Assembly (NCBI GenBank): GCA_017620335.1
Contig: JAFZQO010000023.1
Location: 1 to 64,000, forward strand
Length of the DNA: 64,000 nucleotides
Reading direction: 5' to 3'
Source of the DNA: Bacteroidales bacterium
GTDB taxonomy: Bacteria > Bacteroidota > Bacteroidia > Bacteroidales > UBA932
Part shown: positions 2,361-19,349 of the stretch, piece by piece
How positions within the stretch are numbered: the stretch's first letter is position 1
How the letters are laid out: each line of letters starts with the position of its first letter
The notes under the pieces: model-generated
What the model saw: only the letters and a program-made list of their open reading frames with translations
What the model was told of the DNA's origin: nothing
Database searches by the model: none
Program-made: the position numbers and the translations under genes

Positions 2361-4157
2361 ATGAAAGAATTCTTCAAAATGGTCCTGGCCGTCATATGCG
2401 GTCTCTTCCTTGCAGGCATCATCTTCTTCATCCTTGGCATGGGCTTCGTGTCCTCCATGGCTGCCGCCGGCAGCTCGACGCCCGTCATCCCCAAGTCCGG
2501 GGTACTGGTCATGGACATGTCGAAGATAGCCATTTCCGAGCAGTCCACCCCGTCTGCCCCGGATGTCATGTCGCTGGTCTCAGGCGGCGGCATGATGGAG
2601 AATGTCGGCCTCTGGAAAGCCGTCCAGGCCATCCACAAGGCGGCTGAGGACCCCGCCGTCAAGTATATCTACATCAAGTCCGACGGCACGACCGGCGGCA
2701 TGGCGCAGATCCAGGAGCTCCGCAAGGCCCTGGCCGATTTCCGCCTCAGCGGCAAGCCCGTCATCTCATACATGGAGACTCCCGGCACTCTGTCATACTA
2801 TCTCGCGTCGGTTTCCGACAAGATCTACATGACCCCTCAGCTGGGCGGCAGCTCCATGATCAGCGGCGTAGGCACCAGGCTCATGTTCTACAAGGACCTC
2901 CTCGACAAGCTCGGGGTCAACATCCAGCTCATCCGCCACGGCAAGTATAAATCCGCCGGAGAGGGCTTCATCAAGAACGCCCCCAGCCCTGAGAACCTCG
3001 AGCAGAACCAGGTCATGGTCGACGCACTATGGGGCAGCATGGCTTCCGAGATCGCCGAAAGCAGGGGAATCAGCGTCGAGGCCATTAACGCCGCCATCGA
3101 CGAGTTGAAGCTCAACCTCCCCGAGGATTTGCTCCGCGAGGGTTTCGCTGACGAATTGCTCGACCGCCAGGCCCTTGAGAACAAGCTCGCCGACCTCGCG
3201 GTCGTCGACTCGTTCAAGGACCTCAAGAGTTTCACGCTCTCGGACTATATCGCCGCGAAGGTCACTCCCAACTTCAAGGCCAAGAAGAAGATAGCCATCA
3301 TCTACGCCGACGGCGAAATAGTCGTGGGCAATGGCAAGCAGCAGGTCTCCGGAGAGTATTTCGCCCGCCAGATCGCCAAGGTGCGCGCCGACTCGACCGT
3401 CAAGGCCGTGGTCTTCAGGGTGAACTCTCCCGGCGGAAGCGTCCTGGCATCAGAGCAGATCAAGGCCGAGATCGAACTCCTCAAGAAAGACAAGCCGGTC
3501 GTGGCTTCTTACGGAGAGTATGCCGCTTCGGGCGGATACTGGATCTCCAACAGCTGCGACAAGATCTACTCCGACGCGCTCACGCTTACCGGCTCGATCG
3601 GCGTGTTCAGCATGATTCCGGACCTCAGCAACACCGTCAAGGACATCGCGCACCTGAACATCGTCACGGTTTCCTCCAACAAGCATGCGGATATGTATTC
3701 CGGCATGCGTCCGTTGGACAAGGACGAGTTGGATTACATGCAGGCTAGCATTGAGAGCATCTACGACCGTTTCGTCAACATCGTCTCCGAGGGCCGCGGC
3801 CTGGAGCCCGAATTCGTCGACTCCATCGCGCAGGGCCGCGTCTGGGCTGGTTCCGACGCCATCAAGATCGGTCTTGTGGATGAGCTTGGCACCCTTGAGG
3901 ACGCTGTCAAGTGGGCTGCCGCCGCCGGCGGCGACGCCGACCTGGCATCATGGAACGTAACCGAGTATCCCAAGCCCCAGACCCAGATGGAGATGATGAT
4001 GGAGATGCTTGGCAAGAAGTCCGCCCCCGAGAACATACTTGCCGGAACGCCCTTCGGCGATGCCGCGGGCGTGCTGCTCGACTGGTATAAAAGGGTTAAG
4101 GACAATCCTTCGGACGTGACTTTCGCCCGCATGCCCTATATCATCGACATCCGTTAG
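2361..4157 (+). CDS. sppA: Signal peptide peptidase SppA, 67K type (S49 family)
   Basis: A 598-residue membrane serine protease thought to degrade cleaved signal peptides. An N-terminal membrane segment (residues about 7-35) is followed by two tandem S49 domains, the layout of the long E. coli-type SppA. The general-base lysine lies in the first domain in IRHGKYKSAGE, and the nucleophilic serine in the second domain in YAASGGYWIS, matching the Lys/Ser dyad shared between halves in this family. I start at the ATG at 2361, just before the hydrophobic segment; the open frame extends upstream antisense to hisS and is not real there. Its end overlaps the tilS end by four bases, tail to tail. Confidence 0.95.
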   Translation: MKEFFKMVLAVICGLFLAGIIFFILGMGFVSSMAAAGSSTPVIPKSGVLVMDMSKIAISEQSTPSAPDVMSLVSGGGMMENVGLWKAVQAIHKAAEDPAVKYIYIKSDGTTGGMAQIQELRKALADFRLSGKPVISYMETPGTLSYYLASVSDKIYMTPQLGGSSMISGVGTRLMFYKDLLDKLGVNIQLIRHGKYKSAGEGFIKNAPSPENLEQNQVMVDALWGSMASEIAESRGISVEAINAAIDELKLNLPEDLLREGFADELLDRQALENKLADLAVVDSFKDLKSFTLSDYIAAKVTPNFKAKKKIAIIYADGEIVVGNGKQQVSGEYFARQIAKVRADSTVKAVVFRVNSPGGSVLASEQIKAEIELLKKDKPVVASYGEYAASGGYWISNSCDKIYSDALTLTGSIGVFSMIPDLSNTVKDIAHLNIVTVSSNKHADMYSGMRPLDKDELDYMQASIESIYDRFVNIVSEGRGLEPEFVDSIAQGRVWAGSDAIKIGLVDELGTLEDAVKWAAAAGGDADLASWNVTEYPKPQTQMEMMMEMLGKKSAPENILAGTPFGDAAGVLLDWYKRVKDNPSDVTFARMPYIIDIR

Positions 4158-5599
4158 GGGAGAGTGATCCTCACTATATTTACGGAGCCCTTCGCCACGC
4201 GGAGGGCTTCGTCCATTCTCAGACCCGCTACGGCCGCGACATGTCCGTCACCGCCCTTGTCAAGGACTGGGGAGTACACCACGACGGCGGATTCCTTGTC
4301 GCTCAGGGAGAACTTGCTATCCGTGAATAAGTCGCTGATTTTCTTGGCTTTGCCACCCATTCCGAACGGACGCATCCAGTCGCCGGCTCGCCAGCCGCGG
4401 AGCGTGAAGGGGAAGGGGAGCGCGGCGGCGTCGCAGATGAGCGTGCCGGCCGGCTGCTTCAGCATGATGTCCGTGGGCACGGAAAGAATTTCGATGCGGA
4501 CAGTCCGGCCGCGGAGAGCATATTCGCCCGGGCCTTCGACGACGACGTCTTCCTCCGGGACCGCTTCGACGCGCGGCCTGAAGGTCATGGTGCCGGAGGC
4601 TGTCTCCAGTACATGGGTGGGGGATAGGAAGCGCTTGCCCGCAAAGGTACCTTCCCCGTCCGCGGCGTAATCCTCCAGTAGTTTCTGAACCGATTTGAGG
4701 GTGTCCTGATGGAAGCCGAGGGGCTCGAGTAAGCGGTAAAGGACGTACCTCCAGTGCCTGAGACCGAGCAAAGCCCCGACATCTATCTTATTGTCCATGA
4801 GAACCTTGTCCTCCGCTTCGCGGAAATAGTCCTCGACGATGTCCTCCGCCTGCGCGAATCGCTCCATATCCTCGTTGAGTGTCCTGACGAACGAAGGATT
4901 GATCTTGGCGAACTCTGGAAATACAGCGTTCCTGATGCGGTTGCGCTTGTACTCCACCTCCGCATTCGTCCTGTCCTCCCTATACTCCACGCCGTTCTTC
5001 CTGGCATACTCCTCGATCTCCTCCCTCGTCATCCCCAGCATCGGCCTCAGCAGTAGGACCGGCCCCCTTTCCGGCGGGGTACTGCCCTGAAAATTAGTGC
5101 CACCCTCGGCATCATAAGAGGGGGGGACCCATTGCTTGCAATGGGGGGGGGCCTGCGGAGCAGGACAATTTTCAGGGCAGTACCCCGCCGGAAGGGGGCT
5201 GATGGGTGAAATGCCACGCAGGCCGCGGAGGCCGGTGCCGCGCAGGAGGTTGAGGATGAGGGTTTCGGCGTTGTCGTTGGCGTTGTGGGCAACGGCGACG
5301 GCGTCGAAGCCGTTCTCGGCGGCGACTTGCGCGAACCATGAGTAACGAAGCTCGCGAGCGGCCATCTCGATGCTGACGCCGTGCTCAGAAGCGTATGCCT
5401 CAGTATCGAAATCGGCGCGGAAGAAGCGCACTCCGTGCTCCCGCGCCCATCCCTCCACGAACTCCGCGTCCGCGTCGCTGTCAGCACCCCTCAGATGGAA
5501 GTTGCAGTGCGCCACGGCGAAATCCGCTCCCGCACGGCCGTACATGTCGGCCATGCACATGGAGTCGATGCCTCCGCTGACGGCAAGCAGGACTTTCAT
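4154..5599 (-). CDS. tilS: tRNA(Ile)-lysidine synthase with an in-frame palindromic insert
   Basis: TilS converts C34 of the CAT-anticodon tRNA-Ile to lysidine using ATP and lysine, which changes it to read AUA. The PP-loop AVSGGIDSM is at residues 6-14, an N-type ATPase core runs to about residue 210, and the C-terminal TilS domains follow with the RAGDWMRPFGMGGKAKKISDLF region. At 481 residues it is about 45 longer than expected. The excess is one block, residues about 134-180, between LRGLRG and VLLLRPMLGM. That block is encoded by a long inverted repeat at 5063-5198 with runs of 7 and 9 G. The frame stays open, so the protein may still work with a surface loop, but slippage in the G runs would break it. 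Confidence 0.93.
   Translation of the reverse strand: MKVLLAVSGGIDSMCMADMYGRAGADFAVAHCNFHLRGADSDADAEFVEGWAREHGVRFFRADFDTEAYASEHGVSIEMAARELRYSWFAQVAAENGFDAVAVAHNANDNAETLILNLLRGTGLRGLRGISPISPLPAGYCPENCPAPQAPPHCKQWVPPSYDAEGGTNFQGSTPPERGPVLLLRPMLGMTREEIEEYARKNGVEYREDRTNAEVEYKRNRIRNAVFPEFAKINPSFVRTLNEDMERFAQAEDIVEDYFREAEDKVLMDNKIDVGALLGLRHWRYVLYRLLEPLGFHQDTLKSVQKLLEDYAADGEGTFAGKRFLSPTHVLETASGTMTFRPRVEAVPEEDVVVEGPGEYALRGRTVRIEILSVPTDIMLKQPAGTLICDAAALPFPFTLRGWRAGDWMRPFGMGGKAKKISDLFTDSKFSLSDKESAVVVYSPVLDKGGDGHVAAVAGLRMDEALRVAKGSVNIVRITLP
5063..5198. repeat. Palindromic element inserted in frame within tilS
   Basis: A left arm at 5063-5095 and a right arm at 5167-5198 are reverse complements over 32-33 bases with a single one-base difference (TTT against AA in the run next to CCGG). 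The 71-base centre carries a second small palindrome, CCCATTG-CTTG-CAATGGG, and two G runs of 7 (5120-5126) and 9 (5143-5151). The element is about 136 bases, lies wholly inside the tilS reading frame and adds about 45 residues rich in Pro, Gly and Cys. This resembles the in-gene palindromic elements known from Rickettsia (RPE), but I know of no such family named for this group. Confidence 0.85.
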
Positions 5600-6680: not shown

Positions 6681-6708
6681 GGATTCCTTCGCTTCGCTCG
6701 GAATGACA
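6681..6708. repeat. Short dispersed-type palindromic repeat between proS and the DUF3078 gene
   Basis: The 28 bases contain GGATTCC and GGAATGA flanking TTCGCTTCGCTC. In the minus-strand frame this translates as CHSERSEGIQ, a string recurrent in spurious ORFs of many bacterial genomes. It is therefore likely a copy of a dispersed extragenic repeat, here between the proS stop and the next start codon. Only one copy is in the window. Confidence 0.5.
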
Positions 6709-16491: not shown

Positions 16492-19284
16492 ATGGCAGAA
16501 ATCAGAATAAACAAGCTCATCAAGAAATACAACGTCGGCTTGCAGGAACTCGTTGAATTCCTGCAGAAGCTGGGCGCGCAGGTAGAGGCCAATCCCAACG
16601 CCAAGGTTTCGGACGAGTACGTCCCTGCGCTGGACAAGCAGTACAGCAAGGACCTGGCGATGAAGGAGGCTTCCGAGAAGATAGACATCAAGCTGACCGA
16701 GATACTCGAGAAGACCAGCAGGAAGCAGCAGGAGAAGGAGGAGGTCGAGGAAGATGAACCCGAGAGGGAGACCATCATCAAGAGCTCCATCCTCACCGGC
16801 ATAGGCCGCGCCCCGCAGCCTCCGAAGCCCGCTCCGGCACCGGAGCCGGAGCCGGAACCTGCACCCGCTCCCGAGCCGGAACCCGAGCCGCAGCCTGAAC
16901 CGGAGCCGGAGCCTGCGCCGGCCCCCGAACCGGAGCCTGCCCCGCAGCCCGCACCCGAGCCTGAGATCCAAGCGGAACCCGAGCCCGAAGCCCCCGCCGT
17001 CGAAGTTACGGAAGGGCCTGAGGTCCGCGAGGAGCAGCCCGTTGCGGAGACCGAGCCCGAAATCCCTGCCGAAGAGGCTGCTGAGCCGCAGCCTTCACAG
17101 CAGGAGTCGGTCGGCCTCAAGGTGCTGGGCAAGATTGACATGACCCAGTTCGAGAAGAAGAAGGCCGGCAAGAAGCGCGAGCGCATCAGCAAGAGCACCC
17201 AGAAGGTCGACGTGGGCAAGGTCGGGTCCGATCCCGAGCTCAAGCGCGGCCAGAAGGACGCCCAGAAGAAGCAGGGACAGCCCTCCCAGAAGGACGCCGC
17301 CAAGTCCGGCAAGGGACGCAAGCGCGGCGCCGACCGCTTCAAGCCCGAGCTCACCGAGGCCGAGCAGGAGGAGATGCAGAAGCAGATCCAGAAGCAGGTC
17401 AAGGAGACCTACGCCCGCATGAACGAGGGCAAGAAGAACAATTTCGGAGCCAAGTACCGCAAGGAGAAGCGCGAGCTCGCATCGCAGCGCGCGCAGGAGG
17501 AGATGGAGCAGGAGGCCGCCGAGAAGAAGGTCCTGAAAGTCACCGAGTTCGTGACCGTCAACGACCTCGCCACCCTGATGAACAACACCCCCGTCGTGAA
17601 GGTTATCGGAGCGTGCATGAGCCTCGGACTGATGGTTTCCATCAACCAGCGCCTCGACGCGGAGACCCTCGTGCTCGTGGCAGAGGAGTTCGGATACAAG
17701 GTCGAGTTCGTCACCGCCGGACTTACCGAGGAGATCGAGAACAACGATACTCCCGACAGCGAGGAGGATCTCGTTCCCCGTCCGCCGGTTATCACCGTCA
17801 TGGGCCATGTCGACCATGGCAAGACCTCGCTCCTCGACTATATCCGCAAGTCCAACGTCATCGCCGGTGAGGCCGGAGGCATCACCCAGCACATCGGTGC
17901 TTACAGCGTGACCCTCGAGGACGGCCGCCACATCACCTTCCTCGACACCCCGGGACACGAGGCCTTCACGGCCATGCGTGCCCGCGGAGCGCAGATGACC
18001 GACCTCGCCATCATCATCGTCGCCGCCGACGACGCCGTGATGCCGCAGACCGTCGAGGCCATCAACCATGCCCAGGCCGCCAACGTGCCCATGGTGTTCG
18101 CCATCAACAAGATAGACAAGCCCGGCGCCATGCCGGACACCATCCGCCGACAGCTTTCCGAGATGAACATCCTCGTCGAGGACTGGGGTGGTAAATACCA
18201 GTGCCAGGAGATATCCGCCAAGAAGGGCGTCAACGTGGACAAGCTCCTCGAGAAAGTCCTTCTTGAGACCGACCTTCTTGAGCTCAAGGCCAATCCCAAC
18301 AAGCTCGCCTCAGGCGCCGTCATCGAGTCTTCGCTCGACAAGGGCCGCGGTTACCTCGCCACGATCCTCGTCCAGAACGGCACCCTGCACGTCGGCGACG
18401 TCGTGCTTAGCGGAAGCTTCTACGGCAAGGTCAAGTCCATGTTCAACGAGCGCGGCCAGAAGGTCACCGAGGCCGGCCCTTCGACTCCGGTTTCAGTCCT
18501 CGGACTCAACGGAGCCCCGTCGGCCGGCGAGAAGTTCGTCGTCATGAGCGACGAGCGCGAGGCCAAGAGCATCGCCAACAAGCGCGAGCAGCTCATCCGC
18601 ATCCAGGGCATCAAGACCCAGAAGCACATGACCCTCGAGGAGATCGGCCGCCGCATCGCCATCGGCAACTTCAAGGAGCTCAACGTCATCGTCAAGGGCG
18701 ACGTGGACGGTTCCGTGGAGGCCCTCTCCGACTCGCTCATCAAGCTCTCCACCGAGCAGGTGCGCGTCAACGTCATCCACAAGGCCGTGGGTGCCATCTC
18801 CGAGTCCGACATCCTGCTGGCCGAGGCGTCCGACGCCGTCATCATCGGCTTCCAGGTCCGCCCGACTGTGGAGGCCCGCAAGGTCGCGGACCGCGAGGGC
18901 ATCGAGATCCGTCTCTATTCCGTCATCTACGACTGTATCAACGAGGTCAAGGACGGTATCGAGGGCATGCTCGAGCCTGAGAAAAAGGAGGAGGTCACCG
19001 GTACCGCCGAGGTCAAGCAGACCTTCCGCATCAGCAAGGTCGGCACAATCGCCGGCTGCATCGTCCGCGACGGCAAGATGGTCCAGAAGGCGAGCGTGCG
19101 CCTCATCCGCGACGGCATTGTCATCTATACCGGCGAGCTCGGCTCCCTGCAGATCGGCAAGGACGCTGCCAAGGAAGTCACCGCCGGCCGCGAGTGCGGC
19201 ATGAGCATCTCCGGCTACAACGACATCAAGGAGGGCGACGTCATCGAGTCCTTCCACATCGTGGAAATCAAGCGTACGCTGTAA
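16492..19284 (+). CDS. infB: Translation initiation factor IF-2
   Basis: IF-2 is the GTPase that brings initiator tRNA to the 30S subunit. The 930-residue protein opens with an IF2_N domain ([19 protein letters not shown]), followed by a Pro/Glu/Ala linker (residues about 105-205) with dozens of PEPEPE-type repeats, then a charged region, a second IF2_N-like segment ([15 protein letters not shown]) and the G domain. GTPase motifs are clear: [17 protein letters not shown] and NKIDKPG. Domains 2-4 (C1 and C2 formyl-Met binding) follow to the end. The start at 16492 is preceded by AGGGGG-type purines. An inverted repeat at 19311-19349 ends the operon. Confidence 0.97.
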
Positions 19285-19310: not shown

Positions 19311-19349
19311 GTGCGGGTAGTGGTCCATGTGCTGGACCACTACCCGCAC
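19311..19349. terminator. Perfect 17-base-pair hairpin between infB and the CDF gene
   Basis: Arms 19311-19327 and 19333-19349 are exact reverse complements around the 5-base loop TGTGC. The element sits between two converging genes, 26 bases after the infB stop and 17 bases before the end of the CDF frame. A bidirectional terminator is the simplest reading, but there is no T run on either side. It may instead be an extragenic palindrome used as a transcription block. Confidence 0.6.

Follow-up and report, generated by a model that had tools for sequence, protein, structure and literature searches.

Rickettsia provides the best-known cases of palindromic elements that lie in frame in conserved genes. 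The Rickettsia palindromic elements (RPEs) are described as dispersed palindromes of about 105-150 bp that occur both in intergenic regions and, in frame, within conserved genes, and an RPE-bearing guanylate kinase was reported to be translated and active (PMC2229807, PMC10969869); these elements are also treated in PMC2635572. MITEs such as Correia/NEMIS, ERIC, and RUP are small, non-autonomous, inverted-repeat elements. Their terminal inverted repeats are conserved and a target-site duplication is usual, as characterized in PMC2229807, and Correia elements have been reported to invert (PMC10969869). Here we describe an element in the tilS gene of a Bacteroidales bacterium whose nearest relatives in kind, judged by size and in-frame occurrence, appear to be the RPEs. 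Like them it is a palindrome of about 100-150 bp with many dispersed copies that lie in frame inside unrelated conserved genes. The comparison with RPEs made in the initial annotation is borne out as regards size, palindromy, and the way in which copies sit in frame within housekeeping genes. The likeness is one of description. The element differs from RPEs in the phylum in which it is found and may differ also in its covariation-supported pseudoknot core, in its arms, which are not conserved but co-vary, and in the inversion of its core from species to species. In the open-licence literature we recognised no report of such elements in Bacteroidota.

The window, by which we mean the whole stretch of 64,000 nucleotides that was analysed, carries tilS, the gene for tRNA(Ile)-lysidine synthetase, as an open reading frame of 481 aa on the minus strand (4154-5599). 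The element occupies positions 5064-5198, as delimited by the inverted repeat and by linker comparison. Its left arm (5064-5095) is the complement of its right arm (5167-5198), and the arms have a sequence peculiar to this copy. They are 32 nt each, 97% complementary, and 71 nt apart, and become 34 and 33 nt long if one 1-nt gap is allowed, so that the palindrome reported initially is real. It is the longest inverted repeat in the window when arms up to 400 nt apart are considered. The folding energy of the element strand is -91.3 kcal/mol as compared with -52.8 (sd 3.8) for 200 shuffled sequences, which is a z of -10.1. A separate perfect inverted repeat of 17 bp with a 5-nt loop, possibly a terminator, is found at 19311-19349.

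The element is 135 nt long, that is, 45 codons of the tilS frame, and the frame runs through it uninterrupted. On either side of the insert the protein matches TilS families and solved TilS structures, with TIGR02432 covering residues 2-136 and PRK10660 residues 182-280. The A. aeolicus TilS structure, 1wy5, aligns in two stretches, 2-132 and 182-277, and the 49 query residues between them (133-181) stand opposite three residues of the A. aeolicus protein. The TilS linker is 61 aa in the window and 14-27 aa in insert-free relatives. The element accounts for the approximately 45 extra TilS residues to which it had been equated. The two G runs noted before are also present, the G7 run at 5120-5126, where other versions of the core read GAGGGAGGGG, and the G9 run at 5143-5151. 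In six of the 11 aligned copies of the same genome the position of the G9 run has eight Gs followed by T, and we infer that the ninth G is probably a T-to-G change rather than a gain in length.

An alignment of TilS from relatives, as proposed in the initial annotation, was done with the best 30 tilS loci from 118 genomes, 28 of which were readable. The linker is 14-27 aa in 18 of the 28, 38 aa in one, and 51-84 aa in nine, all nine being open, and insert-free versions are thus present at 18 loci. Eight of the nine long linkers carry a pseudoknot element, which an exact script test identified in three and inspection by eye, with imperfect stems, in five; these elements belong to two subtypes and occur in both orientations. 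The ninth, in the tilS of genome G157 (locus L196, positions 1858-2031 on its minus strand), is a different palindromic repeat with CCCGAAGG...CCTTCGGG units, lying in frame in the same TilS loop. The outcome that would have made the segment an old TilS loop, namely a single copy in the genome and the same segment in all relatives, was checked and is not the case: the genome has many further copies, and these together with the TilS of insert-free relatives rule out that reading.

A blastn search with the element against the genome of the window (2.76 Mb, 54 contigs) gave 11 further clear places along with weaker partial matches, and there are hence 12 clear copies including that of the window, one of them split by an insert. 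A covariance model trained on 11 copies gave 20 rows in this genome at E≤1 and 19 at E≤1e-4; one of the 19 is another copy read on its reverse strand, so that 18 copies remain, and the last row (E 0.8) is insignificant. A whole-genome search with the left arm had been suggested for finding the family. The search for the family was borne out by these many copies, but the arm is unsuited as the query, and what the copies share is the core of about 70 nt. Because the arm is not conserved between copies, an arm-only search would have missed most of the family.

When the window's genome and 100 relatives were searched by blastn (E≤0.001), 35 of the 101 genomes were positive, and all of these are in one genus of 41. 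In six chosen relatives the model (E≤1e-5) gave 18, 8, 29, 9, 30, and 34 matches, reverse-strand duplicates included. An exact 26-nt core pattern was found in at least 116 stretches of the GTDB collection. The 80 matches listed with titles are from MAGs labelled Bacteroidales, Bacteroidia, or Rikenellaceae, whose isolate names point mostly to ruminants, and among the matches listed one is from Candidatus Cryptobacteroides caccocaballi and two are from Rikenellaceae. As far as seen, the family is nearly genus-specific, all genomes compared being metagenome-assembled. Genome G161 has only two element matches, and its contig at L086 is about 96-97% identical to L108 beside the element; this contig is probably misbinned. 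No match to the element was found in viral contigs, phages, and plasmids by the exact pattern or by blastn at the sensitivity used. Membership in an Rfam family was rejected because the five matches (E 1.8-3.3) were all far under the gathering score.

The copies listed have a common layout, which is a left arm, usually of 20-43 nt, then usually one unpaired base, a core opening with GTGCCACCCTCGGCANCRTAAGAGGG, two hairpins, and the right arm. In the window the core, GTGCCACCCTCGGCA...CAGGAC, is at 5097-5166 on the plus strand and is therefore antisense to tilS. It opens with a predicted H-type pseudoknot (5098-5122) in which TGCC (5098-5101) pairs with GGCA (5108-5111), CCCTC (5103-5107) pairs with GAGGG (5118-5122), and TCATAA forms a loop. 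This is followed by a hairpin at 5128-5145, CCCATTGC..GCAATGGG, whose length and sequence depend on the copy, and by another at 5152-5164, CCTGC GGA GCAGG, whose position and length depend on the copy.

Stem 1 and stem 2 of the pseudoknot are each fully paired in 153 of 157 rows. Stem 1 exists in five paired versions (TGCC/GGCA, GGCC/GGCC, AGCC/GGCT, GGTC/GACC, and CTGC/GCAG), as does stem 2 (CCCTC/GAGGG, CCCGT/ACGGG, CCCAC/GTGGG, CCCCC/GGGGG, and CCCGC/GCGGG). The 157 rows overlap in that copies are entered under two names, and the majority of the loci come from a search with an exact pattern, which fixes this region; the rare variants are therefore the informative rows. These compensating variants are covariation that supports the predicted H-type pseudoknot at the opening of the core. 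One additional row, the insert-bearing L011, is without the pseudoknot motif.

For the whole structure an alignment of 108 matches (107 distinct) from 100 sources selected among the known loci was used, and it is biased toward the structure since it was fitted to the model. The arms pair within a copy and differ in sequence between copies: 95.5% of the arm pairs in this alignment are standard pairs, and changes on both sides are seen in 24 of 24. In this the element differs from MITEs, as conserved terminal repeats are absent. Taken as a whole, the 38-pair structure has a covariation score of 0.727, as compared with 0.160 for shuffled alignments, and this score falls to 0.07-0.10 when the partners are shifted by 1-3 columns. 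The third core hairpin is paired in only 43.5% of the cells of the wide alignment because its place and length vary. The mismatches in 129 distinct arm pairs, read relative to the core strand, are unequal, with 57 G-U against 17 A-C and 36 G-A against 5 C-T. In two copies, L011 in pcrA of the window's genome and L301 in ispE of G121, the core is lengthened from about 69 nt to 147 and 152 nt, respectively; both are in frame, and by eye the extra stretch lies in the third loop of the pseudoknot. A tandem partial duplication of the element with a common right arm was seen at L159.

The window's genome has 12 full type-1 copies, each in one open frame, in tilS, ribF, aroK, uvrA, an M16 peptidase gene, atpG, ispE, truB, mtaB, dnaX, pcrA, and fmt. 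A 13th, degenerate type-1 copy (L016) is in the open frame of trmB close to the end of the gene. Matches to the host family flank or span the insert for 11 of these 13, the others being pcrA, for which the coordinates of the second family stretch are lacking, and trmB, where the family match is upstream only. In L012 (2-1888, plus strand) LptF/LptG and methionyl-tRNA formyltransferase domains are in a single uninterrupted frame, possibly a gene fusion. A codon-usage score was also applied to 124 parsed elements, of which 104 were judged and 20 dropped. Confident coding on both flanks was on the same strand in 37 of the 104 and on opposite strands in one, and in 66 there was coding on one side or none. 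Among the 37 two-sided cases, 29 pass through the element in one open frame and eight do not, and in none is the element in frame with a stop; the chance expectation for the 29 is one third (P=2.5e-8). By this score 10 of 16 parsed copies are in frame in the window's genome, four of 17 in G121, six of seven in G157, where L227 is not in one frame, and two of nine in G162; these figures are conservative, as atpG and mtaB, in frame by protein family, are missed. In the 12 full cores of the window's genome one to three of the six frames are closed by stops, and in five of them only one is closed. The sense frame bearing TAA is closed in all 12, and not one of the 13 sense-oriented elements that are in frame by the codon-usage score uses it. 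Of the type-2 copies of this genome, none of the four scored (L070, L071, L073, and L074) has an open frame through it, and L075 is unparsed. These four belong to the second subtype, with a GGCC/GGCC and CCCGT/ACGGG pseudoknot, and a like subtype is in frame in the tilS of other species.

Orthologous sites in the relatives are found empty, scarred, or with the core inverted. The element is absent from ispE in G157, while in G121 ispE has an element whose core is inverted and longer (152 nt against 69 nt in the window's genome). In the M16 peptidase gene of G121 the element is absent and a remnant of the core and of an arm is left. In fmt, G157 and G121 have no element but a stretch resembling the outer left arm, which is likely a scar. 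The sites in fmt, the M16 peptidase gene, and ispE that are empty or bear scars have diverged too far for a target-site duplication to be read. The fmt loop in L274 (G120) and L278 (G159) has, in place of the element, an in-frame stretch reading CHPERSEGS, and a motif of similar look, GAGCGAAGCGAAGGA, is at position 6685 of the window. At the site of the G121 element L259, the window's genome has a palindrome with a different core (L295, contig C41, approximately 17419-17542) whose arms, by eye, are GGCCCTTCCGCTCC and GGAGCGGAAGGGCC.

Across four genomes, 13 sites are found in more than one genome, and these give 32 ortholog pairs, not independent of one another, in which the core is inverted in 16 and not inverted in 16; the unparsed copies L075, L269, L306, L315, L317, and L319 are outside this count. 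The tilS element of G121 is one of the inverted orthologs. Flank matches among the other named loci have the same mixture of core orientations. In 29 of the 32 pairs, L002/L313, L232/L264, and L264/L307 being omitted, the arm columns are changed in both arms in 145 cases, in one arm in 64, and otherwise in 39, and are unchanged in 429 and gapped in 17. In 18 of 34 comparisons the nearest core is that of another copy in the genome itself and not that of the ortholog. The same holds in 10 of 11 for the window's genome, where L011 with its insert was omitted. This comparison is tilted to the paralogs, which offer the larger choice. A recent-looking copy, L258 in G121 and L311 in G162, has arms near those of the dnaX copy L307, with an arm identity of 0.91. 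This similarity suggests that the arms travel with the element; a distance of about 9 kb separates L311 from L307 on the same G162 contig, and a local duplication would equally fit. The idea that the arms are made from the target at insertion, first suggested by the fmt stretch of G157 and G121, appears unlikely, the M16 peptidase remnant in G121 and the arms of L258 and L311 being against it.

A gene that could move the element was also looked for. No autonomous partner was found. Inspection by eye of 12 core loci whose arms are short, odd, or at a contig edge gave no version bearing an ORF. The RVT_1 reverse transcriptase search gave no candidate in the window's genome and matches in 37 of 121 genomes, with G121, G157, and G048 not among them. 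A reverse transcriptase is therefore disfavoured as the mover, though a lost or distant enzyme is possible. REP palindromes are presumed to be mobilised in trans by a single-strand transposase of the RAYT (Y1) kind. The element resembles REPs and REPINs in being a palindromic repeat, and Y1-like ORFs of about 300-360 aa are present in this genus (L328-L338, with an HxH motif by eye; six of the matches are in G044 alone). Y1 transposase matches, mostly weak, were found in 58 of 121 genomes, with one weak match in the window's genome, and G058 and G042, which have 30 and 34 matches to the element model, are outside these 58. Short inverted repeats are beside five of 11 Y1 genes inspected, and the element model found no copy in the stretches around these 11 genes. 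REPs are described as 20-40 bp long with main groups tagged by GTAG or CGTC (PMC3733652), whereas the element here is 135 bp and has variable ends without a fixed tag.

These results bear on what the element is. It could be a functional mRNA device, kept by its hosts to regulate housekeeping genes through pausing, attenuation, or RNase III cleavage by means of the pseudoknot and the G runs. In favour of this are the conservation of the pseudoknot with compensating changes, the residence of the type-1 copies of the window's genome in housekeeping genes, and the long double-stranded RNA stem that the arms would make. Such a device is nevertheless unlikely, because with the core inverted in half of the ortholog pairs the mRNA would carry the core strand in one species and its complement in another, insert-free orthologs are as common as the tilS survey indicates, and some copies are outside clear reading frames. 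The frequent inversion between species could instead point to a phase-variation cassette in which a recombinase inverts the core and switches two versions of a protein loop; inversion leaves the frame as it was, and tilS stays open whichever way round the core lies. However, the arms, on which a recombinase would act, have no fixed sequence across copies, essential enzymes are odd targets for switching, and the inversions here are known between species only, and we regard this explanation as more improbable still.

Segments that are skipped are known from T4 gene 60 and from mitochondrial byps, and the long stem, which draws the flanks together, would suit a programmed translational bypass or an excision from the RNA. 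In such an element the frame and the stops should be irrelevant, yet 29 of the 37 two-sided cases lie in one open frame, no in-frame case has a stop, and all 13 sense-oriented in-frame cases avoid the sense frame that bears TAA, which makes skipping very improbable. It is hardly credible that the segment is an artefact of the assembly or a variable TilS loop of old standing. Two relatives (L196 and L198) do have long linkers of other kinds, but the same core recurs at many loci that are not linked and in assemblies made independently, and G121 has an orthologous insert.

We consider it probable that this is a non-autonomous, RPE-like mobile palindromic element which is tolerated as a translated loop, and that template switching during replication homogenises its arms and flips its core. 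The element consists of a structured core, with the pseudoknot and two hairpins, enclosed by a long stem. An insertion into a gene would survive only if it adds a whole number of codons, uses a stop-free frame, and falls in a tolerant loop, and it would then be translated, as the open frame implies, into about 40-50 extra residues that may be nearly neutral for the protein. After insertion, template switching between the arms may keep them complementary while they drift and may flip the core, and since inversion leaves the length unchanged the frame cannot change. Template switching between inverted repeats is described as homogenising the arms and inverting the spacer, in coding DNA as well (PMC8604942, PMC8794818), and loop inversions are described as rare in rRNA genes (PMC8794818). 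It would account for both the paired arms of free sequence and the flipping cores without a special enzyme.

The bias of the arm mismatches is not expected from template switching alone. Correction at the DNA level should be symmetric with respect to the strands, and the core lies either way relative to the gene, so the biased mismatches point to copying of, or selection on, a folded strand. Either selection on the folded strand must contribute or a bias of another kind is at work. From this bias the core strand appears to be the functional strand, and copying may act on this strand when folded, as RNA or as single-stranded DNA, by an enzyme supplied in trans. More tentatively, and with considerable doubt, we suggest that the element is recognised by its shape and not by the sequence of its ends: a single-stranded RNA or DNA with a pseudoknot core, enclosed by a stem whose sequence is free, might be copied by an enzyme and might settle in frame in indispensable genes in either orientation, the cores being homogenised within each genome.

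The filled, empty, scarred, and inverted sites in dozens of genomes make insertion, homogenisation of the arms, and inversion of the core directly measurable. The arms also call for caution in RNA discovery, since paired arms of free sequence can covary through template switching of the DNA as well as through selection on the RNA. A separate case in gut Bacteroidota would make the addition of peptide segments to essential proteins by such elements a more general route.
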